NCBI GenBank assembly: GCA_945865625.1
Contig: CAMBFD010000009.1
Location: 1-48,371, forward strand
DNA: 48,371 nucleotides
DNA from: Chitinophaga pinensis
Lineage (GTDB): Bacteria; Bacteroidota; Bacteroidia; NS11-12g; UBA955
Direction of reading: 5' to 3'
Below are positions 34,347 to 48,050 of the stretch, in pieces. Made by a program: the position numbers and the translations under genes. The notes under the pieces are model-generated. The model searched no databases. It was not told the origin of the DNA and saw nothing but the letters and a program-made list of their open reading frames with translations. Each line of letters starts with the position of its first letter. Within the stretch, counting starts at the first letter, position 1.

Positions 34347-34376
34347 GGTGATTACTCAATTGTAATCACCTTTTTT
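34347..34376. terminator. Bidirectional terminator shared by alaS and rsmG
   Basis: A 9 bp perfect stem GGTGATTAC/GTAATCACC with a six-base loop, flanked by A5 on the left and T6 on the right, so it can act on both strands. The rsmG stop codon (34352-34354) and its last codons (VITIE) lie within the stem and loop. Confidence 0.85.
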
Positions 34377-34978
34377 GTTTCGAAAAAGTCTTCTTTGAAA
34401 ACTTTGGAAATATTGTTTGATTTAATTTTAAGCCTCGGATTTAATTGAAGGAGTTCATTTAACTCTTCGGAAAGGTCGCCACCTTTTAAAAGGTAGAATT
34501 TGGGTTTCTCCATCCAATTGTCTTTCATCCAGTCATATAGCTTAATGGCTGGAGCCACGGCTCTTGCAACGGCTAAATCATATCCATATTCAGAACTTTC
34601 GGTGCGTTGGTGCTCTCCTAGAACATTTTTAAGTTCTATAGATTGAGCCACTTCATTCACAACATTGATTTTTTTACCGATTGAATCTACGAGGTGAAAT
34701 TTGATTTCAGGAAACATGATGGCAAGGGGAATACCTGGAAATCCACCACCGGTTCCAATGTCGATAATGCTTTTAATTCCTGTAAAATCACAAAATTTAA
34801 CGAGGGCTAAAGAGTGTAATACATGGTGTATATAGAAGTTTTCCATGTCTTTTCTTGAAATCACATTCACTCTCTCGTTATGGTAAACATAAAGATCGTA
34901 AAGTGCTTCAAATTGCGTTTTCTGAGTCTCGTTGAGTTCAGGGAAATAGCGTTCAATTAAACTAGAGGTGATTACCAT
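34352..34978 (-). CDS. rsmG: 16S rRNA (guanine-527-N7)-methyltransferase
   Basis: A 208-residue RsmG (GidB) that methylates G527 of 16S rRNA. The SAM-binding motif GTGGGFPGIPLA is at 75-86. LVDSIGKKINVV and DLAVARAVAP are family-specific. The length is typical. Its start overlaps the glycosyltransferase stop by seven bases, so the genes are translationally coupled. Its 3' end is embedded in the terminator hairpin. Confidence 0.95.
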   Translation of the reverse strand: MVITSSLIERYFPELNETQKTQFEALYDLYVYHNERVNVISRKDMENFYIHHVLHSLALVKFCDFTGIKSIIDIGTGGGFPGIPLAIMFPEIKFHLVDSIGKKINVVNEVAQSIELKNVLGEHQRTESSEYGYDLAVARAVAPAIKLYDWMKDNWMEKPKFYLLKGGDLSEELNELLQLNPRLKIKSNNISKVFKEDFFETKKVITIE

Positions 34979-36111
34979 ACAATTTTGCGTTTAAAAAATG
35001 CGTTGATGGAAATAAATAAGTACCAGAAGCTATAGAAAAAATTAAAGAATGGATAATAAGGATTTGCGAGTGGCATGTTGAGGAGTTTTCCTTTTTTGGT
35101 AAAAATGACCCATTCAGGAATGATTTTTACCAAAATTGGAATGATTGGCCAAAACCAACTGCTTCCAAAAGCAAACCAAAATATGATTGTTGACCAGAAT
35201 AGCAATTGAGAAATTGGCAACCAAGCGAGTTGATTTTTAACATCGGAACGGTATTGTTTACCAATCCATAAATGACGCATTTTTTGTTTCCAATATTCTT
35301 TCCAATTTGCTGGTCCATTTGTGTTTACAAAGCTATTAGGGTCAATGCAAATCGTAGTATTTGTGGCATTTGAAGCTTCTTGAACAAACAAATCATCGTC
35401 GCCGGCTGGCAAGTGGTGGTGCTTAGAAAAACCACCCACTGAATCGTAAATACTTCTGGTGTAGGCTAAATTTCGTCCAACACCCATGTAAGGTTTCCCT
35501 TTGATTGTCATCCCTAAGAATTGCAAGGCAGTGAGCATGTTTTCGTATTGCACCAATCTGCCTAAGAATGTTTTTTTAGTTTTAACGGGTGAAACTCCAA
35601 GAATAATGTCTTTTTTAGACGTAAAACCTGCAGCCATACTTTTAAGCCATTGGTCAGAGTTTGGCACACAATCGGCGTCAGTAAGCAAGAAATGGTTGTA
35701 TTTGGCTTTTTTAAATCCTAAGGTTAGGGCAAGTTTTTTACCTCCATTTTTAATCACTTCTGGATCGAGGAGAACGTATTTTAGTAGGGGTTCTTTTTCA
35801 GCGGTTTTAACAAGAAAATATGCTGTTTGATCACCGGAACGATCATCAATGATAACCACTTCAAATTGAGGGTAATCTTGGTTGAGCCAATGTGGTAAAT
35901 TTTCTTCGAGTTTCAATACAGAATTTCGTGCGGCAATGATAATAGACACTGGAGGTAGCTGAGATGTTGGTGCCTGATTTGTGAGATTGACGACAGAAAA
36001 ATATTGAAAGAAGTAAATCCATCCAACAGAAAAAAAGATAACTGCGCAGATGCATAGAATGAGATCAATTTGATCAAAATGTAGAGACTGGAAGAAATTT
36101 TGGATGTTCAC
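34972..36111 (-). CDS. Membrane-anchored family-2 glycosyltransferase
   Basis: A 379-residue GT2 enzyme. An N-terminal helix (about 16-40) precedes the GT-A domain: VSIIIAARN (55-63), VVIIDDRSGD (85-94), LLTDADC (142-148, the DxD motif) and GDDDLFVQE. A relaxed QxxR-x2-W motif (QKMRHLW) follows, then two or three C-terminal membrane segments. This is the architecture of processive or polyprenyl-linked transferases; the product is unknown. The start is GTG at 36111; no in-frame ATG precedes the first helix. It forms an operon with rsmG. Confidence 0.83.
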   Translation of the reverse strand: MNIQNFFQSLHFDQIDLILCICAVIFFSVGWIYFFQYFSVVNLTNQAPTSQLPPVSIIIAARNSVLKLEENLPHWLNQDYPQFEVVIIDDRSGDQTAYFLVKTAEKEPLLKYVLLDPEVIKNGGKKLALTLGFKKAKYNHFLLTDADCVPNSDQWLKSMAAGFTSKKDIILGVSPVKTKKTFLGRLVQYENMLTALQFLGMTIKGKPYMGVGRNLAYTRSIYDSVGGFSKHHHLPAGDDDLFVQEASNATNTTICIDPNSFVNTNGPANWKEYWKQKMRHLWIGKQYRSDVKNQLAWLPISQLLFWSTIIFWFAFGSSWFWPIIPILVKIIPEWVIFTKKGKLLNMPLANPYYPFFNFFYSFWYLFISINAFFKRKIVW

Positions 36112-38323: not shown

Positions 38324-38331
38324 TACCTTTG
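38324..38331 (+). promoter_or_regulatory. -7 box of the SIMPL-domain gene
   Basis: Exact TACCTTTG. It gives a leader of about 35 bases before the ATG at 38371 and overlaps the TTG that opens the longer frame at 38329, which it therefore rules out. Confidence 0.45.
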
Positions 38332-38370
38332 AACAGTCATTCGTATATAGAATTATATAATTGTGAACAG

Positions 38371-39099
38371 ATGAAAAATAGTTTAAAAATTTACATTGCA
38401 ATTGGAAGTTTTGCATTGTTTCAACCCTTAATCTCACAGCAGCAAGCTCTAGTATCCCCAATAAAAACCATCGATATCTCTGAATCTTCAGAAATTCAGG
38501 TTAATCCCAATAAAATTACCGTTAAAATTGTTTTAAAGGAAAGAACAGAAGATAAAAATCAACAACCAATATCCATTAAAATTCAAGAGGATAGCCTGAG
38601 GTTAATGTTGAAAAAAATGAAAATTGATGCATCTAAGTTAACTGTTGTAAATATGAGTACAACATTTGAATCGGTTCGTAAACGCAAAGATGCCGTATCT
38701 ATAAAAGTTCTGAATCTTGAATTATCGAAGTATTCGGATCAAAATTTGATTTTTCAAAAGCTCGACAAGTGGAAAGTTTTCAATGCGTATGTCGAAAAAT
38801 ATGAGCATACTCAATACGATAGTCTCGTTTTAGAAATGAAGAAATTGGCACTTATGATGGCTAAAAATAACGCTAAATTGCTATTGAAAGGCATTGGTGA
38901 GGAGCTTTTATGTCCTTTAGAAATCCGATATGAACAAGTTTATGCATCAGATAACATTTCACCAATGTTGTCAATGATGAGGGGCAGTAAAGATAAAATC
39001 GAGATGATTGGAGATGGTGATAATGAAGAGAGCCAATCTTTGGAACTCACTAAAATTAAAATCAAATCTAATGTTTTTGTAAAATTCCAAATAAAATAA
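38371..39099 (+). CDS. SIMPL-domain (DUF541-type) secreted protein
   Basis: About 242 residues. The ATG at 38371 gives a signal peptide (MKNSLKIYIAIGSFALFQPLISQQ). The mature part follows the SIMPL pattern: IDISESSEIQVNPNKITVKIVL near the start, then a central region of paired strands with SLRLMLKKMKIDASKLTVVNM, an alpha-helical KKLALMMAKNNAKLLLKGIG, and a final strand. The family is periplasmic or outer-membrane linked, with no defined biochemical activity. I am fairly sure of the fold assignment, not of function. Confidence 0.7.
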   Translation: MKNSLKIYIAIGSFALFQPLISQQQALVSPIKTIDISESSEIQVNPNKITVKIVLKERTEDKNQQPISIKIQEDSLRLMLKKMKIDASKLTVVNMSTTFESVRKRKDAVSIKVLNLELSKYSDQNLIFQKLDKWKVFNAYVEKYEHTQYDSLVLEMKKLALMMAKNNAKLLLKGIGEELLCPLEIRYEQVYASDNISPMLSMMRGSKDKIEMIGDGDNEESQSLELTKIKIKSNVFVKFQIK

Positions 39100-39143: not shown

Positions 39144-39866
39144 ATGAACTTGAAATTAATTGCAGTTGCTGCATTTTTGAACCTTTCTGGTCTTTTTGCT
39201 AAAACTTTATCTTACGACTTGGGCTTGTTTGCCGACTCAATCCCTGTAAAAAATATAGATGTACAAATTATACCGAAGGCCAATTTGCATCCTCAAGGGG
39301 CATTGACATTCTTTTGGGGGACAGGCTCATCGGTATTGTTAGAGCAAGTTGCAAAAACATTGAAAGATAACTTGAAGTTTAATTTTCCTGATATTGACAT
39401 GGAAATTAATGGCCCCAACGTAATTGGATATCAATTTCATGCAAAAGAAAAGGTTTCATTGGGTATGGTTTTTAGCAATTCATCAATTAAAACCAATAAT
39501 TTGGTGATGCCAGATTTTCAAAATCCTTCAGATTCAACAGTCTATTACTACAACGTAGGTATGAATTCTCTATTAATGCAAGTTGATTGGTTTTGGGGTA
39601 AAATTAGAAGGCCGAAATCTACATTTTCATTTCACAGTGGAATTGGTTTGGGAATGTTTAGTTTTAATTTAACCACCGAAAAAGTAAGAGGCTCGGGTCA
39701 AAGTGTTGACTTCATCGATAAAAGCGTTTCTACCTCTGGATTTCAACTAACCTTAATTGGTGTAAAGCACACCATGAATGCATTGCATGGCTTGGGTTGG
39801 TTTGCGAATTTGGGTGTTGGAGTGAATTCGATGGGCTTTACGTCGGGAATCAACTATACTTTATAG
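39144..39866 (+). CDS. Predicted outer-membrane beta-barrel protein, unknown function
   Basis: A 240-residue secreted protein. The signal peptide is MNLKLIAVAAFLNLSGLFA. Strand-rich segments include NLHPQGALTFFWGTG, YYNVGMNSLLMQVDWFWG, TFSFHSGIGLGMFSFNL and a terminal MGFTSGINYTL. This fits a small outer-membrane barrel. No family was recognised. A TTAATTTG element (imperfect -7 box) lies about six bases before the ATG. It precedes the AAA+ gene by 84 bases on the same strand; co-transcription is possible but not shown. Confidence 0.62.
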   Translation: MNLKLIAVAAFLNLSGLFAKTLSYDLGLFADSIPVKNIDVQIIPKANLHPQGALTFFWGTGSSVLLEQVAKTLKDNLKFNFPDIDMEINGPNVIGYQFHAKEKVSLGMVFSNSSIKTNNLVMPDFQNPSDSTVYYYNVGMNSLLMQVDWFWGKIRRPKSTFSFHSGIGLGMFSFNLTTEKVRGSGQSVDFIDKSVSTSGFQLTLIGVKHTMNALHGLGWFANLGVGVNSMGFTSGINYTL

Positions 39867-39950: not shown

Positions 39951-42578
39951 ATGGACAATAACTTTTTTAAATTTAAGGATATCAAAATCTACTCGTCTAC
40001 AGAGTGGTTGGCCAATAATACCAAGAAATATCGTTGTGTTTTTGAGCAAAAAGAACTCGCATATGTTTATTGCGAGGTGAGTGTGTTCAACAAAAAATTT
40101 GATGAAGAAGATTGGACATTAAGAATGCAGCTCAAATGTTTCGATGAAAAAAATAACGAAGTATGCGATTTAAATTGTGATAGACTCATTTCAATGTCCG
40201 ACAATGTTGCATTTATTCGCGAGGGTTGGGGAGTTAAAACCACGGGGGCTTATTGGAAACCAGGCGTTTACAAATGGGAAGCTTGGATTGGAACAGAATT
40301 GTTAACCACTAAAACCTTTTATGTTGAAAGCGTTGGGCAAGTTAAGCCTGGATTTAATCCTTATTTTAAAATTGAAACGGTTAAACTTTATGAGGGACCT
40401 GATGACAATACCACCATCGATTTAAGAAAATATTACACCGTTTTCAATGTACTGAGCACAAAATATGTTTATGTAGAATTGAATGCGAAAAATTTAACCC
40501 GTAGATCAGCTGATTTACCAATTGAATTGATGTTCAACTTTCGAACATTGAGCGGTTATTTAAAAGGTAGGGTTCAAAAACTATATTTTGTAAAACCAAC
40601 TGAAGATGAATTTTCGGCAACCATTGGTTGGGGTTCCGACATTATTGGAACTTGGTCTAGGGGTGATTATTATGTTGAAATCGTTTTCATGGGCGAGTTG
40701 CTTGCGAATATTCCTTTTGAAATAGGGGAAGATTTTGTGGCTGCAAACGACAGCGATTTCTTGCCAATGACACAAATTGAATTTTATGATGAAGATGGCG
40801 AAGAAATTGAACAACCAGAACCACAATTAGAACATCACGACGAAGAATCGATAGGCTTTGAAGGTGTGATGAAGGAATTGGATGAGCTCATTGGTTTAGA
40901 TCCAATTAAAGTTAAAATTCGTGAATATTCAGACTACTTGAGGTTTGTTGCCCTTAGAAAAGAAAAAGGTTTTGATGAAACCGATAAAATTAACTTACAT
41001 GCCGTATTCAAAGGCAATCCTGGAACTGGTAAAACTACGGTGGCTAGATTGCTAGGTAAAATATATAAAGAACTTGGACTTTTGAAAAAAGGTCATGTGC
41101 ATGAAGTTGATCGTGCCGATTTGGTTGCTGAATATATTGGTCAAACTGCGCCAAAAACAAAAGAAGCCATTAAAAAAGCTAAAGACGGCGTTTTATTTAT
41201 TGATGAAGCCTATTCTTTAGCTCGAAAAGACGAAGACAATAAAGATTTTGGTAAAGAAGCCATTGAGGTATTGCTGAAAGAATTAAGCGATTCAACTGAT
41301 ATTGCAATTGTTGTTGCTGGTTACCCTGAGGAAATGGAAGTCTTCTTGGAGTCTAATCCAGGACTAAAGAGTCGTTTTGTTCTTCAATACGATTTTCCAG
41401 ATTATACACCACAAGAATTGGTGCAAATTGCAGATTTTGCTGCCAAAAAGAGAGGGGTTGTTTTAAATGAAAAAGCCCAGATTACGCTTCATAAGTTTTT
41501 GGTTGATAAATACCGAGATCGTGATAAATTTTTTGGAAATGCCCGTTTGGTAAATTCTATGTTGGATGAAGCTAAAATTAATTTAGGTCTGAGAATTATG
41601 AAAACTGAGCATCCTGAATTACTCGATAAAGATGGACTATCGGCGATTGATGAATCAGATTTAACAAAAATATTTGCGCAAAAAAATAGAATCTTACCCG
41701 ATATTCCAATTGATGAAGAATTGTTGAAAGATTCAATGGGTCGATTGAAAAATATGATTGGCTTGGAGCAAGTGAAACAAGAAATTGAAGAACTTGTGAA
41801 ATTAGTCAGATTTTATAAAAGTCAGGGTAAAGACATCCGTAAAACATTCTCATTACACAGTGTATTTAGTGGAAATCCTGGAACTGGTAAAACAACGGTT
41901 GCACGTATTTTAGCTCAAATTTATAAAGCCTTGGGTATTCTTGAGAGGGGACATTTGGTTGAATGTGACCGACAAAGTTTGGTAGGCGGATATGTGGGTC
42001 AAACTGCAATTAAAACTTCTGAATTGATCAATAAATCTATGGGCGGGGTTTTGTTTATAGATGAAGCTTATAGTTTGTCTGACGGTGGCTCAAATGACTT
42101 TGGTAGAGAAGCCATTGAAACATTGTTGAAACGTATGGAAGATAAACGTGGAGAGTTTATAGTGATTGCTGCAGGTTATACCCAAAATATGGATAAATTC
42201 ATGGAATCAAATCCAGGTTTAAAATCGCGTTTCGATAGGGTCTTTAATTTTAAAGATTTCAATGCTGAAGATTTGTATACGATTGCGTTGAATCAATTAA
42301 TAGATAATAATATATCTCCTGAACCGAAAGCCGCTGACCACTTGATGAAATACATAGAATTTATGTATAAAACACGTGATAAGTATTTTGGAAATGGTAG
42401 AAGTGTTCGTAAAGTTTGTGAAGAAGCTATTCGCAATCAACATTTACGTTTAAGTGAATTAACGCCGAGTAAACGGACAGAAAAAGCAGTAAAAACCCTC
42501 ACCTTTGAAGACGTTGAAGAATTCTCAACTGAGGTTAGGCCAAACATCGCATCAGGTGGCATCGGATTTAAGGTTTAG
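39951..42578 (+). CDS. Tandem CbbX/SpoVK-type AAA+ protein with duplicated N-terminal module
   Basis: An 875-residue cytoplasmic protein. The N-terminal 260 residues contain two copies of a beta-rich module: YVY at 38-40 and 172-174, GWG at 92-94 and 226-228, W-x2-G-x-Y near 102-107 and 235-240, and ELL at 116-118 and 249-251. An acidic linker follows (about 265-305). Two AAA+ domains of the CbbX/SpoVK class come next: Walker A GNPGTGKTT at 355-363 and again from about 641, Walker B VLFIDEAYSL in both, and SNPGLKSRF in both, likely bearing the arginine finger. Related ATPases remodel protein complexes (rubisco activase CbbX, EccA of type VII secretion). No rubisco or type VII genes are present. 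The target is unknown. Confidence 0.85.
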   Translation: MDNNFFKFKDIKIYSSTEWLANNTKKYRCVFEQKELAYVYCEVSVFNKKFDEEDWTLRMQLKCFDEKNNEVCDLNCDRLISMSDNVAFIREGWGVKTTGAYWKPGVYKWEAWIGTELLTTKTFYVESVGQVKPGFNPYFKIETVKLYEGPDDNTTIDLRKYYTVFNVLSTKYVYVELNAKNLTRRSADLPIELMFNFRTLSGYLKGRVQKLYFVKPTEDEFSATIGWGSDIIGTWSRGDYYVEIVFMGELLANIPFEIGEDFVAANDSDFLPMTQIEFYDEDGEEIEQPEPQLEHHDEESIGFEGVMKELDELIGLDPIKVKIREYSDYLRFVALRKEKGFDETDKINLHAVFKGNPGTGKTTVARLLGKIYKELGLLKKGHVHEVDRADLVAEYIGQTAPKTKEAIKKAKDGVLFIDEAYSLARKDEDNKDFGKEAIEVLLKELSDSTDIAIVVAGYPEEMEVFLESNPGLKSRFVLQYDFPDYTPQELVQIADFAAKKRGVVLNEKAQITLHKFLVDKYRDRDKFFGNARLVNSMLDEAKINLGLRIMKTEHPELLDKDGLSAIDESDLTKIFAQKNRILPDIPIDEELLKDSMGRLKNMIGLEQVKQEIEELVKLVRFYKSQGKDIRKTFSLHSVFSGNPGTGKTTVARILAQIYKALGILERGHLVECDRQSLVGGYVGQTAIKTSELINKSMGGVLFIDEAYSLSDGGSNDFGREAIETLLKRMEDKRGEFIVIAAGYTQNMDKFMESNPGLKSRFDRVFNFKDFNAEDLYTIALNQLIDNNISPEPKAADHLMKYIEFMYKTRDKYFGNGRSVRKVCEEAIRNQHLRLSELTPSKRTEKAVKTLTFEDVEEFSTEVRPNIASGGIGFKV

Positions 42579-42773: not shown

Positions 42774-45700
42774 TTAACGTAAGTAAATAATTTTGGCCCA
42801 AACAACGATAGATCCGCATTCAATTTGAATAGGGTATGTGCCTGCAGAAAGGTGTAGGTTATCAAAATTGATTGTCTCAAAATACTGTCCATCTTCCTTT
42901 ATTTCCCAGTTTCTTGAATACAATTCCTGTTGCCCAATAATAGTTGTAAGTTTCACTTTTACCCGATCACCTTTTTTTGCCCTAAAAGAATAAGCCGATA
43001 TGTTTGTAGTTGGATTGGGGAAAAGACTGAAATTAAGTTCATTGTTTTGTTTCAAAAGAAATGGATTTTCAATTTTGAGAATTTGAGAGGATGTATCTGT
43101 GCAACCAATGGTATTTTCAACCTTTAACAGTATACGATAAACATTGTTTATATTGATTTTTTTAAGTGTCTTTTTACCAGAAAATTGTTCATCCCCAAAT
43201 TGCCATTGATAGGTGTAATTAGGTTGCATGGTATCGTCGGCAATTAATTCTAATTGAAGTTGATTTGGTGAATTGTAGGTTTGTGATAAATTATATTTAA
43301 ATGATGCAGAAACTGGATCAACAACAGTTAAACTATTTTCATTGAATGTATCCGTACACCCATTGTTATCGGCAATTAGGCTAACCACGTAATTTCCTTT
43401 ATTCAGAAAAGTATGTTTTAAATTTCTGCTGGTGTCGGATTTAATGCCCACAATTTCCCAAGTGTATTTCAATGTTCTATTGTCGCGATTCGTACTGCTG
43501 TTTTGTCCCAATAATTCTTGTTGAACTGCGCACAAAGGATTTGGAGATAAGGTAAATTGTGCCCTTGGGATTGATTTGATTTCAATCAATCGGCTCGATG
43601 AGTCAATGCATCCCTCAGGAAGATGATTTACCAACAGCGATAATGATTTTTGTCCATAATTAAGAAATGCAAGTTGTGTGCTTTTTGAATTGAACGGTTT
43701 GCCATTTAAGGTATAAGTATATGTGCCTTTGTCGGTTGGATTTGAAGTATTGGAAATTTTCATAAACTCATTCTCGCAAAAAGAAGATTGAGCAATTTGT
43801 GTGATTGAATTTAAGACCTCAAAACTTGGTTTATAGGTTTCATAAACAATGGCAATTTTTGCAAAAGTATCGGCACAATTGTTTATGGTTTTTGCGATTA
43901 ATACATTGTTAAAACTTCCCACATTGTTGAATTGATGGGGCTTTGGTGTTACTCCCGCTTCTGAAGTGGCATCGGCCCATTTCCATGTGTAGAATATGGT
44001 TTCATTGCTACCTATTGTGGTTGAATTGATTGCCGTAAACAAATTGTTCTTGTCGCATTGAGCACTATCTTTAAAACTCCAATTTGCTTTAGGATTGGCC
44101 CAAACTTGAATGGGTTGCAATAAACTATCAAAACATGATTTATTTGAGCCTACAATCAACTTAACACTGTAACTACCATAGCTTGGAATCTTTACAGCAT
44201 AATCTTTTGTGCTGCTTTTTAATGCAGTTGTGAGAATTGACCAACGATAAGAACTGAGTACATCGAAATCAATGGTAGACGTATTCGTAAACTTAAATTC
44301 GTTTCCTTTTACACATTGATTGAGTGTATTCGTTAAAAATGAAACTTTTGGCTTTGCAAAAATGCCAATTTTAATATTGAATGAAGTATCTGAACAACCT
44401 TTGTATTGGGCAATGGAATAATAATTTCCAGTGTCTGAATACGATAAATTATTGAGCAACAATGTTGTGTCTGTTCCTTTTAAAAGCAGAGGTGCCTTAT
44501 ACCACTTATTACTCAACGGTAGGTTGAAAGAATCTTTTACCGCTATTGTAATTGCATTGCCTTGACAAACCTCTAATTCGCCTGATTTACTTCTCACTTT
44601 GAGTGTAGGCTTTTGAATGACAGCGATAAAATCTTTCTTTAAAATGGTATCTGAAGTTGATCCATTTACGCTGAGTTTAATGGATTTTAATCCCGCAGAA
44701 TGGTACGTAACAGTATGTGGACCTTTGCCGGTGGCTGTTTGGGGAAATGCGCCAGCGCCAAAATTCCAATCCCATTGATTGATCAATCCCTCAGAAGAAT
44801 CTGAAAACACAAAAGTCTGTTTTGTACATGCGCTTTTCCTATCTGCATTTAAATTAGGAGAAACTTTTTCGTAAACAAGGGAATAATCTTCACTTTGCCC
44901 ATACCCAATATTTGTACATGCGTTGGTATCCATAGGGTAGTAATCACTTATCACCCTCATTAAAATCGGTTGGTTTTTCACCAAATTGGCAGGCGGTGTA
45001 AAGTTGAAAACCGCATCGTTTACAGAATTTGCAACCACCGATGCAAGCACTTCGCCTTTGTAATTTTCGAATTTTCCATTGTTATTATAATCAATGTAAA
45101 CCCTTGCATATTCTGCATAACCAAGTCCAGCTGTTACTTTTAATGATTGACTTACACTTGGTTTAATCTTGAAAATCTTTTGTTTTGTAAAATTGATATT
45201 TTGTCCATCATCAAAAAACAAACCTGTTTCATTAGAATTGTCGTTTAACGAAACTTTAACAATGCCCATTCCATAATTGACAGATGATGGGGTGGTTGTT
45301 GAAATACACGTTGGATTGGTAGGGGCATTAAAAACTTTAATCCAATGTTTTTTTGTGAAACTCCCAGATGTTCCACAGCTGTTTGCAGTGAGTGTAACCG
45401 TGTAAATTCCTGCTGTATTAAATTTTGCTTCAATGATTTTACCGGTACTATCATTATTGACCCAAGAAAAAGTGCTAGGGGTTATTTGCCATTTGAGGGA
45501 TGTTACAGAGCCTTCAACTTGCTCATACAATCGTACTTTACCACCAACGGCGAAAACTGAATCGAAGGCATAAAAGGATGTTTTAAATCTAGGACTTGTA
45601 AAAGCGCCATAATCTGTAAGGTTACTTCTCCAAACACCTCTTCCGTAAGTAGATGCGAAGATTGTGCTCTTTAATCGATTTTTTGGGGCATAATAAATGT

Positions 45701-48050
45701 CTAAATCCGTTACATCAGCCCACATTGGAAATCCTGAAATAAATTCTGTGATTCCTGCAGATGTTCCTGCACTAGAATTCAGATAAACATAGACACCGCG
45801 GTCGGTGCCGATGTAAATGTCTTCATAACTTCCCGTTGAATCGTATTTTAACGTTGTGATGTTACCATAACTGAAGCCTGCAACGGGACTTGCATTTCCC
45901 AAATTGCCAATTTGTGTCCAACTGCTTCCTTTGTTGGTGCTTTTGTAGAGAATTGAATTGCCAGCTATGTAAATGACATTGCTATCTTTTGCATGCGGCT
46001 CAATGGCTCTAAGTGTAATTCCTGAAGGCATTGTTCCACTTAAATCAGTCCAAGTAGGATTTATTGCCGTTCCTGCATTGTCGGATCTGTATAGTTTACC
46101 GTCACCACGAACCACATATAAAATATTTTTATTGGCAGCACTGTTTTTAATGTTTCGAATGTTGCCAGGGAATCCAGTAGAAATTCTTTTGAAATTGATT
46201 GTCCCATTTGACTTTACACTGTCACAACGCCATACATTCACGTAACCTGCAAACATTCGATTGGGATTTCCTTCTTGAAGTACAAACGGGGTAAGCCAAG
46301 CACCACCTTCATTGATACTATTGACTCCATTTGCCGCAATATCTTTGCTTAAGCGTCTATCGTATTGACGATAAATAGATCCCATAATGTAAGAACCAAA
46401 AACATATTTGTCATCGGTTGGGTCAACGGCACAATCCATTCCATCTCCGCCCCAGTAGGTGAAAAAATTGTCGTTCTGGTGCATTGCCGAGCCGTTATCT
46501 TGATATCCTTGAGCCGACATATTGTCGATATTTTTTGCAACAGAAAGTCTGTAGATCTGAGAATTTTGAATTCCAGATGAAATGTTATTCCAAGTTTCCC
46601 CACCGTTTTTAGAGAAATAGATTCCGCCGTCGTTTCCAGAAAAGATGGTTCTTCCTGAATTGTTGAATTCACCGGCATGTTGGTCGGCGTGCACATCATC
46701 GGCACCACCGGCACCAACCCAATGACCGCAAACAGTAAATGTGGAACCAGAATTTGTTGACTTCCAAATATTTACACCAAAAGCATAAATGGTGTTTTTG
46801 TTAAGAGGATCAGCTGCCAAATCTAAATCATACCATCCTTGTCCGCTGTTATCATTTCCAAGCTCAGAATAGCCTAAGATATTTGCAGGTGTGGCGCTAG
46901 AATTTGTAAATGAGTTTGCGCTATCTCTGGATACATAGAGTCCTTGAAACCTCGAACTGACACAAGTTAAGAAAAACACAGTTCCTCTATCGGCTTTAGT
47001 CACAGCAATTTCTCCTCTTTGAACTCCAGAAGTTGGAAGACCTGTGGTTACTTGAGAAAAACTACTCCCTGTATTGTTGCTCTTATATAAAAATCCGTTA
47101 GAAGCGGCATACACTATATTGGGATTGTAAGGATGAAACTCAACATCGGTATAATTTGAGGCTGTGCTGGTTCTTGTCCAGTTTAAACCAGAATTTGTTG
47201 ATTTAAAAACACCTGAGTTTGTGGCAGCAATGAGAATGGCAGAATTTTTTGGGTGCATTCTCATTTTTCCAACGGTCACATTTCCCATCCCTGTATTTCT
47301 CAAAGAAAATGTAGCACCACCATTTGAAGAAAATACAACCCCATAGCCTGGTGCATCTCCAGCGTCTCTATCGCCTGTTCCAATGTAAAGGGTATCTGGA
47401 TTGTTGTAACTCAACACCATGCTGCTTGCGCCAAGCGTAACAAAGTTGTTATTTGTTCCAGCTGTCCATAAATGACTCCAAGAATTTCCATAATCTTTGG
47501 TTTTCCAGACACCGCCCTGTGGGGCTAAAGCAAAAAATGTATTTGTATCGGTAGGGTGAAAAGCAATGCCATTGATTCTCCCAATTCCTGTAGGTTGGGT
47601 TGATTGATTGTAAGGATGTAAAACAGGACCCACAGGCAACCAACGGCCCCAATCAGCGCAATACGTTGCTGGGGTGACATTCCCATTCGGCGCCAATCCC
47701 GGATTAGTTGTTGAATTTGGCAAAGGGCTGCTATGAGCAATGAGGAAATCATTGATTTGTTGATTGTTCCATACAACATAGCCTGAATCATCGAGATGGT
47801 TGATTACGCGCTGTTCCCAACGTTTGAACGATTTAAAACCGGTTCCTTTTTTAGGGAAATTATTTTGATATTGAGCGTCAAATGCACGCTTTACTTCATA
47901 ATAATTCGGCTTTGGTTGTAACATGAGTTGCACCCAACTATACTCTGGAATGCTATCGGCATTTAGGGTTTGCGCGCCAATATCCCCCAAAATAAAAGAA
48001 AAAAGACTCAAACTGAGTATTTTAAGAAATGGTTTGTAAAAATGAATCAT
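42774..48050 (-). CDS. Giant T9SS-secreted beta-propeller protein with GEVED and PKD-like domains
   Basis: A 1758-residue exported surface protein. The signal peptide ends near GDIGAQ (about residue 27). Residues about 130-830 form a sortilin/VPS10-like beta-propeller region with many Asp-box repeats such as KSTNSGLNW, KSNNTGSSF, SRDSANSF and SKNGGETW. A GEVED domain covers about 915-1057 (VYIDYNNNGKFE ... GQSEDYSLV). Several PKD/Ig-like domains follow to about 1650, with many cysteines. The last 93 residues form a type A T9SS sorting domain containing FSLFPNPTTN and LSAGTYPI. It is probably an adhesin or glycan-binding protein, and no catalytic residue set was recognised. It converges on the AAA+ gene. 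Confidence 0.88.
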   Translation of the reverse strand: MIHFYKPFLKILSLSLFSFILGDIGAQTLNADSIPEYSWVQLMLQPKPNYYEVKRAFDAQYQNNFPKKGTGFKSFKRWEQRVINHLDDSGYVVWNNQQINDFLIAHSSPLPNSTTNPGLAPNGNVTPATYCADWGRWLPVGPVLHPYNQSTQPTGIGRINGIAFHPTDTNTFFALAPQGGVWKTKDYGNSWSHLWTAGTNNNFVTLGASSMVLSYNNPDTLYIGTGDRDAGDAPGYGVVFSSNGGATFSLRNTGMGNVTVGKMRMHPKNSAILIAATNSGVFKSTNSGLNWTRTSTASNYTDVEFHPYNPNIVYAASNGFLYKSNNTGSSFSQVTTGLPTSGVQRGEIAVTKADRGTVFFLTCVSSRFQGLYVSRDSANSFTNSSATPANILGYSELGNDNSGQGWYDLDLAADPLNKNTIYAFGVNIWKSTNSGSTFTVCGHWVGAGGADDVHADQHAGEFNNSGRTIFSGNDGGIYFSKNGGETWNNISSGIQNSQIYRLSVAKNIDNMSAQGYQDNGSAMHQNDNFFTYWGGDGMDCAVDPTDDKYVFGSYIMGSIYRQYDRRLSKDIAANGVNSINEGGAWLTPFVLQEGNPNRMFAGYVNVWRCDSVKSNGTINFKRISTGFPGNIRNIKNSAANKNILYVVRGDGKLYRSDNAGTAINPTWTDLSGTMPSGITLRAIEPHAKDSNVIYIAGNSILYKSTNKGSSWTQIGNLGNASPVAGFSYGNITTLKYDSTGSYEDIYIGTDRGVYVYLNSSAGTSAGITEFISGFPMWADVTDLDIYYAPKNRLKSTIFASTYGRGVWRSNLTDYGAFTSPRFKTSFYAFDSVFAVGGKVRLYEQVEGSVTSLKWQITPSTFSWVNNDSTGKIIEAKFNTAGIYTVTLTANSCGTSGSFTKKHWIKVFNAPTNPTCISTTTPSSVNYGMGIVKVSLNDNSNETGLFFDDGQNINFTKQKIFKIKPSVSQSLKVTAGLGYAEYARVYIDYNNNGKFENYKGEVLASVVANSVNDAVFNFTPPANLVKNQPILMRVISDYYPMDTNACTNIGYGQSEDYSLVYEKVSPNLNADRKSACTKQTFVFSDSSEGLINQWDWNFGAGAFPQTATGKGPHTVTYHSAGLKSIKLSVNGSTSDTILKKDFIAVIQKPTLKVRSKSGELEVCQGNAITIAVKDSFNLPLSNKWYKAPLLLKGTDTTLLLNNLSYSDTGNYYSIAQYKGCSDTSFNIKIGIFAKPKVSFLTNTLNQCVKGNEFKFTNTSTIDFDVLSSYRWSILTTALKSSTKDYAVKIPSYGSYSVKLIVGSNKSCFDSLLQPIQVWANPKANWSFKDSAQCDKNNLFTAINSTTIGSNETIFYTWKWADATSEAGVTPKPHQFNNVGSFNNVLIAKTINNCADTFAKIAIVYETYKPSFEVLNSITQIAQSSFCENEFMKISNTSNPTDKGTYTYTLNGKPFNSKSTQLAFLNYGQKSLSLLVNHLPEGCIDSSSRLIEIKSIPRAQFTLSPNPLCAVQQELLGQNSSTNRDNRTLKYTWEIVGIKSDTSRNLKHTFLNKGNYVVSLIADNNGCTDTFNENSLTVVDPVSASFKYNLSQTYNSPNQLQLELIADDTMQPNYTYQWQFGDEQFSGKKTLKKININNVYRILLKVENTIGCTDTSSQILKIENPFLLKQNNELNFSLFPNPTTNISAYSFRAKKGDRVKVKLTTIIGQQELYSRNWEIKEDGQYFETINFDNLHLSAGTYPIQIECGSIVVWAKIIYLR

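Follow-up and report, generated by a model that had tools for sequence, protein, structure and literature searches.

A protein of 875 aa encoded in the window (the whole analysed stretch of DNA, 48,371 nucleotides in length) is probably a cytoplasmic, dedicated ATP-driven remodelling or assembly chaperone of the SpoVK–CbbX–EccA clade of AAA+ proteins. It begins with two Ig-like modules, followed by a linker, two AAA+ domains and a short conserved tail (Table 1), and no signal peptide is visible in it. The closest named genome is that of an uncultured Bacteroidetes MAG, in which the N-terminus is 98% identical. A full-length model with a pTM of 0.41 did not fix the domain arrangement, and its linker and tail had pLDDT values below 50.

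Table 1. Coordinates of the gene for the AAA+ protein, its predicted parts and nearby genes in the window.
Feature	Residues	Position	Strand	Remarks
CDS of the AAA+ protein		39951..42578	+	875 aa; module A, module B, linker, AAA+ 1, AAA+ 2, C-terminal tail
Ig-like module A	3–128	39957..40334	+	
Ig-like module B	135–262	40353..40736	+	
Linker	275–299	40773..40847	+	acidic, poorly conserved, disordered, pLDDT <50
AAA+ domain 1 with AAA_lid_6	301–580	40851..41690	+	
Pore-loop motif Y-I-G of AAA+ 1	395–397	41133..41141	+	motif class: PMC5385338
AAA+ domain 2 with AAA_lid_6	588–860	41712..42530	+	Walker A at 641–648
Pore-loop motif Y-V-G of AAA+ 2	681–683	41991..41999	+	
C-terminal tail motif IGFKV	871–875	42561..42575	+	conserved, in a predicted disordered segment
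rsmG		34352..34978	-	third gene of the AAA+–GT2–rsmG arrangement in relatives
Membrane GT2 glycosyltransferase		34972..36111	-	3.8 kb from the AAA+ gene, opposite strand
SIMPL/DUF541 protein		38329..39099		upstream of the AAA+ gene
Gene preceding the AAA+ gene		39144..39866		protein of no known family
1758-aa protein		42774..48050	other strand	downstream; PKD-like repeats, probable T9SS C-terminal domain

The N-terminal part of the protein is a duplication, as a preliminary description of this DNA had proposed from recurring landmarks. YVY is present at residues 38–40 and 172–174 and GWG at 92–94 and 226–228, which gives an offset of 134 and a YVY-to-GWG spacing of 54 in both copies; W-G-Y recurs at 102/105/107 and 235/238/240 (offset 133), and the copies of ELL lie approximately 133–134 residues apart. 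When the two halves of an N-terminal alignment of 28 homologous sequences were compared by hhalign, a probability of 96.5 was obtained (E 7e-10, score 60.1); the highest score among 100 column shuffles was 27.0. Single-sequence halves scored 65 by Smith–Waterman versus 27.9 ± 4.5 after shuffling, with none of 1000 shuffles reaching 65, and the diagonal at 134 scored best among all offsets from 60 to 179. The boundaries first given to the copies (10–130 and 145–262) are better placed at approximately 3–128 and 135–262. The 127-position profile built from a single-module alignment of 22 rows matches both copies in nearly all carrier genomes of the window's class. Residues Y25, F29, E40, N45, G92, G97, W100 and F121 (module A numbering in that alignment) constitute the core common to the module copies.

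Modelling of the N-terminal pair by AlphaFold2 with 23 diverse sequences yielded two beta-sandwiches (pLDDT 87, pTM 0.80), in agreement with the "sandwich-like" character assigned earlier. Each module is a two-sheet sandwich similar to solved Ig/FnIII-like domains, with Z values of approximately 10 and rmsd of 2.5–3.7 over approximately 100–114 residues. The structural matches listed, including GH2 Ig-like domains, the Wzt carbohydrate-binding domain, the AlkC Ig domain and PA1606, are Ig-like sandwiches. Certain CbbX-like proteins have a beta-prism (PMC10659427). PDB sequences gave no significant match to the N-terminus or to the profile of the module. Pfam and NCBIfam models recognized only the two AAA+ domains with AAA_lid_6 in the whole protein: zero families matched residues 1–293, and none exceeded its curated cut-off within residues 1–262. 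Among 23 relatives the best Pfam match was DUF6941 (E 0.011), and one distant member of the module family matched DUF3859 under its gathering threshold (E 0.0024). Both remained below gathering in every module protein scanned and had no match in the window protein; as possible parent families they were set aside, their members in the sampled genomes being too scarce for profiles to be compared. The module therefore has a common Ig/FnIII-like fold but is an unnamed sequence family. The term "undescribed" used previously thus holds for the sequence family and fails for the fold, and the search by profile and structure for a characterised family covering residues 1–260 yielded a common fold and no family above its cut-off.

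The tandem SpoVK/CbbX-type AAA+ domains noted behind the module pair were confirmed, with PF00004 and PF17866 each matching twice over gathering in the order of AAA core and AAA_lid_6. Other markers of the SpoVK–CbbX–EccA clade, taken from PMC10659427, are present in both domains: the GY of sensor-1 (G457-Y458 and G742-Y743) is at least 97% conserved in 44 homologues, and the second arginine finger of sensor-2 (R532 in GNAR and R817 in GNGR) is conserved. Also conserved are N469 and N754 of the NPGLKSR motif, in which the +4 residue of the window protein is Lys and Arg stands at +6. AAA+ 1 contains Walker A GNPGTGKT at 355–362, Walker B LFIDEAY, sensor-1 AGY at 456–458, NPGLKSR at 469–475 and GNAR at 529–532, and AAA+ 2 is 47% identical to it; with these motifs intact, both domains look active. 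The nearest AAA+ model by score is SpoVK TIGR02881, whose equivalog cut-off of 422.95 is not reached by either domain (278.7 and 273.5). Nor do the domains reach the cut-offs of CbbX TIGR02880 (245.2 and 212.9 vs 459.25) or EccA TIGR03922 (217.7 and 216.7 vs 466.65). The whole protein passes the TIGR02881 cut-off because its score of 539.6 is the sum of two domains that each fail alone, and such summing is a likely source of wrong annotation of tandem-AAA+ proteins as SpoVK. Judged by the sequence markers tested, the protein belongs to the SpoVK–CbbX–EccA clade, yet to none of the three named families.

Mean pairwise identity over 44 full-length homologues is 0.63 and 0.62 in the AAA+ domains, 0.50 in module A, 0.43 in module B and 0.15 in the linker, and the catalytic and pore motifs are near-invariant. 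All 44 end, after a variable stretch, in an [IVL]GF tail. The motif [IVLM]GF occurs in the last 12 residues of 51 of 55 homologues longer than 555 aa, compared with 5 of 618 neighbouring proteins, and [IVL]GF[KR] tails are found in two-AAA+ as well as one-AAA+ homologues. Four three-AAA+ proteins read for the tail and a 459-aa paralogue do not have it. The GF tail looks like a candidate docking motif. The paralogue is a second SpoVK/CbbX-like protein of the same genome (L143:7870-9249, contig C7), with an unrelated N-terminus devoid of Ig modules.

Fifty-one of 57 close relatives carry the N-terminal pair, and the gene is single-copy. Within the window's class, presumably Bacteroidia, 75 of 296 genomes have the module, which is nearly always paired on an AAA+ protein; this protein nearly always occurs once per genome. 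It is mostly a two-AAA+ form of approximately 880 aa; a variant of approximately 600 aa has two modules and one AAA+ domain. Other classes mostly have one module, carried by proteins of approximately 1300 aa with up to three AAA+ domains; those in the loci read start with TPRs according to Pfam where scanned, and most have three exact Walker A motifs, some fewer. When the AAA+ domains were placed in a tree, the D1 domains of the two-AAA+ and three-AAA+ forms clustered together (support 0.957; one D2/D3 label was shifted owing to a variant Walker A). The single-AAA+ forms fall inside D2, and D1 has therefore been lost in them. A profile search for modules without AAA+ domains, as had been suggested, showed that such proteins exist and are rare, namely a paralogue of 367 aa, a protein of 661 aa and, in a single genus, 278-aa proteins in which a signal-peptide-like start precedes two modules. 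A signal-peptide-like start with two Ig-like modules and no AAA+ domain was observed at L077:8526-9362, L078:37-873 and L081:7113-9098. The scan for close relatives gave one match in genome contigs and none in viral contigs, and the N-terminus was not found in phage and plasmid collections. A protein of Ligilactobacillus salivarius plasmid pMP118 (L032:7218-9995) has two AAA+ domains of the clade behind a repetitive, beta-helix-like N-terminus; it was rejected as a full relative, the alignment starting at residue 170 and the repetitive N-terminus being different.

No operon stands out in the window. In its order, 20 of 49 genomes, from 11 of 19 genera and two families, have a membrane GT2 gene immediately after the AAA+ gene. 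rsmG follows GT2 in those loci of the order that were read, with starts and stops sometimes overlapping. The AAA+–GT2–rsmG arrangement was seen in L096, L103, L104, L106, L107, L110 and L112 and is rearranged in the window (34352-36111). A further 11 genomes of the order, the window's included, have the AAA+ and GT2 genes on one contig 1.8–29 kb apart, and five have GT2 with no AAA+ gene detected. Beyond this order, the best-matching GT2 genes do not adjoin the AAA+ gene. In the one-module lineage, an ABC ATPase and an ABC_tran_2 (PF16949) permease are directly downstream on the same strand in 20 of 37 loci (16 of 25 in one family and 4 of 11 in another; L206, L208-L212, L217-L220, L223-L225, L227, L229-L231, L233, L234 and L236), and the linked permeases are down to 37% identical. 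Five one-module loci from four genera have groES-groEL ahead of the AAA+ gene and in the same orientation (L083, L211, L212, L213 and L214, with one gene between in L212). Neither link was seen in two-module loci, and the fetched loci of two-module genes showed no conserved partner gene beyond order-level synteny. A conserved neighbour may reflect synteny rather than a client. The neighbourhood analysis of homologues proposed earlier narrowed the candidate targets to the recurrent neighbours GroESL, ABC exporter and GT2, and established no target.

Those clade members that have been characterised are narrow chaperones dedicated to their targets; their N-terminal recruiters vary, and they have no peptidase link. 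SpoVK activates MurG, a glycosyltransferase, and requires its own N-terminus to bind it (PMC10659427). CbbX attaches to RuBisCO and draws the tail of RbcL into its pore, which Tyr/Ile/Gly loops line (PMC5385338). By analogy, the Ig-like pair would act as a substrate recognition device for a complex, the role already suggested for it. The protein would form a two-tier hexameric ring, as assumed from the clade, with the pair held on the disordered linker above the first ring to pick the client or the client's adaptor. Pore loops would then tug an exposed client segment, leading to activation, assembly or release and not to degradation, and the GF tail might dock a partner or another subunit. Clients could belong to cell-envelope biogenesis, as would an ABC-2-type exporter or a membrane glycosyltransferase, and GroEL would act at an earlier step of folding, because these genes neighbour the AAA+ gene in relatives, a guilt-by-association argument that is lineage-specific. 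We tentatively suggest a wider scheme, which is possible but less likely than not, of an unrecognised dedicated assembly chaperone in much of the phylum Bacteroidota. It would combine a new Ig-like recruiter family with one to three SpoVK-type motors, take over after GroESL in the folding or activation of envelope machines (an ABC_tran_2 exporter in some classes and a GT2 glycosyltransferase in others), swap its client between lineages and dock by its GF tail. The literature searched, which covered few subscription journals, contained no description of this recruiter, of motors in tandem or triplicate, or of the operon links.

Other readings of the protein were weighed against that of a dedicated chaperone. 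It could be a general proteostasis unfoldase or disaggregase of the p97/ClpB type that serves broad clients together with GroESL, given the tandem AAA+ domains as in p97-type proteins, the groES-groEL genes upstream in five loci of four genera and the lack of a client gene linked consistently across the phylum. We regard this as unlikely, since clade members studied so far are dedicated and not generic (PMC10659427), the recruiter domain is strongly conserved, and the patchy presence in the class (75 of 296 genomes) is unusual for a core unfoldase. It is quite improbable that the modules sense carbohydrate, binding a polysaccharide or lipid-linked sugar and thereby gating the motor. Although the closest solved single-domain folds include Wzt carbohydrate-binding and GH2 Ig-like domains, Z values near 10 are typical for any Ig-like sandwich; a GT2 gene and an exporter adjoin the gene in relatives and module pairs with signal-peptide-like starts exist, but the residues common to all copies are mostly aromatic or glycine and look structural, and no carbohydrate-binding family is related to the module in sequence.

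Models of IetA/IteA from PADLOC and NCBIfam match the protein, which would make it an anti-phage defence ATPase related to IetA. These matches are confined to the AAA+ part and lie far under the NF042959 cut-off (49.7 vs 510 bits), which disfavours this reading; moreover, 51 of 57 relatives have the gene in single copy, no effector genes recur beside it, and the searched collections of phages, plasmids and viruses lack its N-terminus, so that a defence role appears very improbable. A function as RuBisCO activase can practically be dismissed: in sequence, AAA+ 1 has its closest PDB relative in CbbX, but both AAA+ domains fall far short of the cut-off for CbbX and no RuBisCO large chain was found in the 96%-complete genome.

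Few members of the SpoVK–CbbX–EccA clade have known clients. For the dedicated chaperone preferred here, a widespread Bacteroidota branch offers a defined, unnamed recruiter domain and candidate partners (GroESL, ABC_tran_2 exporter and GT2), which makes its client directly testable. Among known systems, Vibrio cholerae RbmA provides, with its tandem FnIII, the top Foldseek match to the two-module model; RbmA, however, is a secreted biofilm scaffold without AAA+ domains, is only approximately 10% identical and arranges its modules differently (rmsd of approximately 14 over the pair). The red-type RuBisCO activase CbbX shares the AAA+ fold, the pore-loop Y-I-G and AAA_lid_6, but has one AAA+ domain and no Ig-like modules, and no RuBisCO was found in the window's genome. 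EccA of type VII secretion likewise joins an AAA+ domain to a substrate-facing N-terminal part, and the relatives of approximately 1300 aa also begin with TPRs; in EccA this part is a TPR/beta-helix region in place of the Ig-like pair, there is one AAA+ domain, and the gene lies in a T7SS operon. SpoVK of Bacillus subtilis has one AAA+ domain and a short N-terminus of three strands and one helix and is limited to sporulating Firmicutes, but it resembles the window protein as a dedicated chaperone with an N-terminal recruiter, and its client MurG is a glycosyltransferase.
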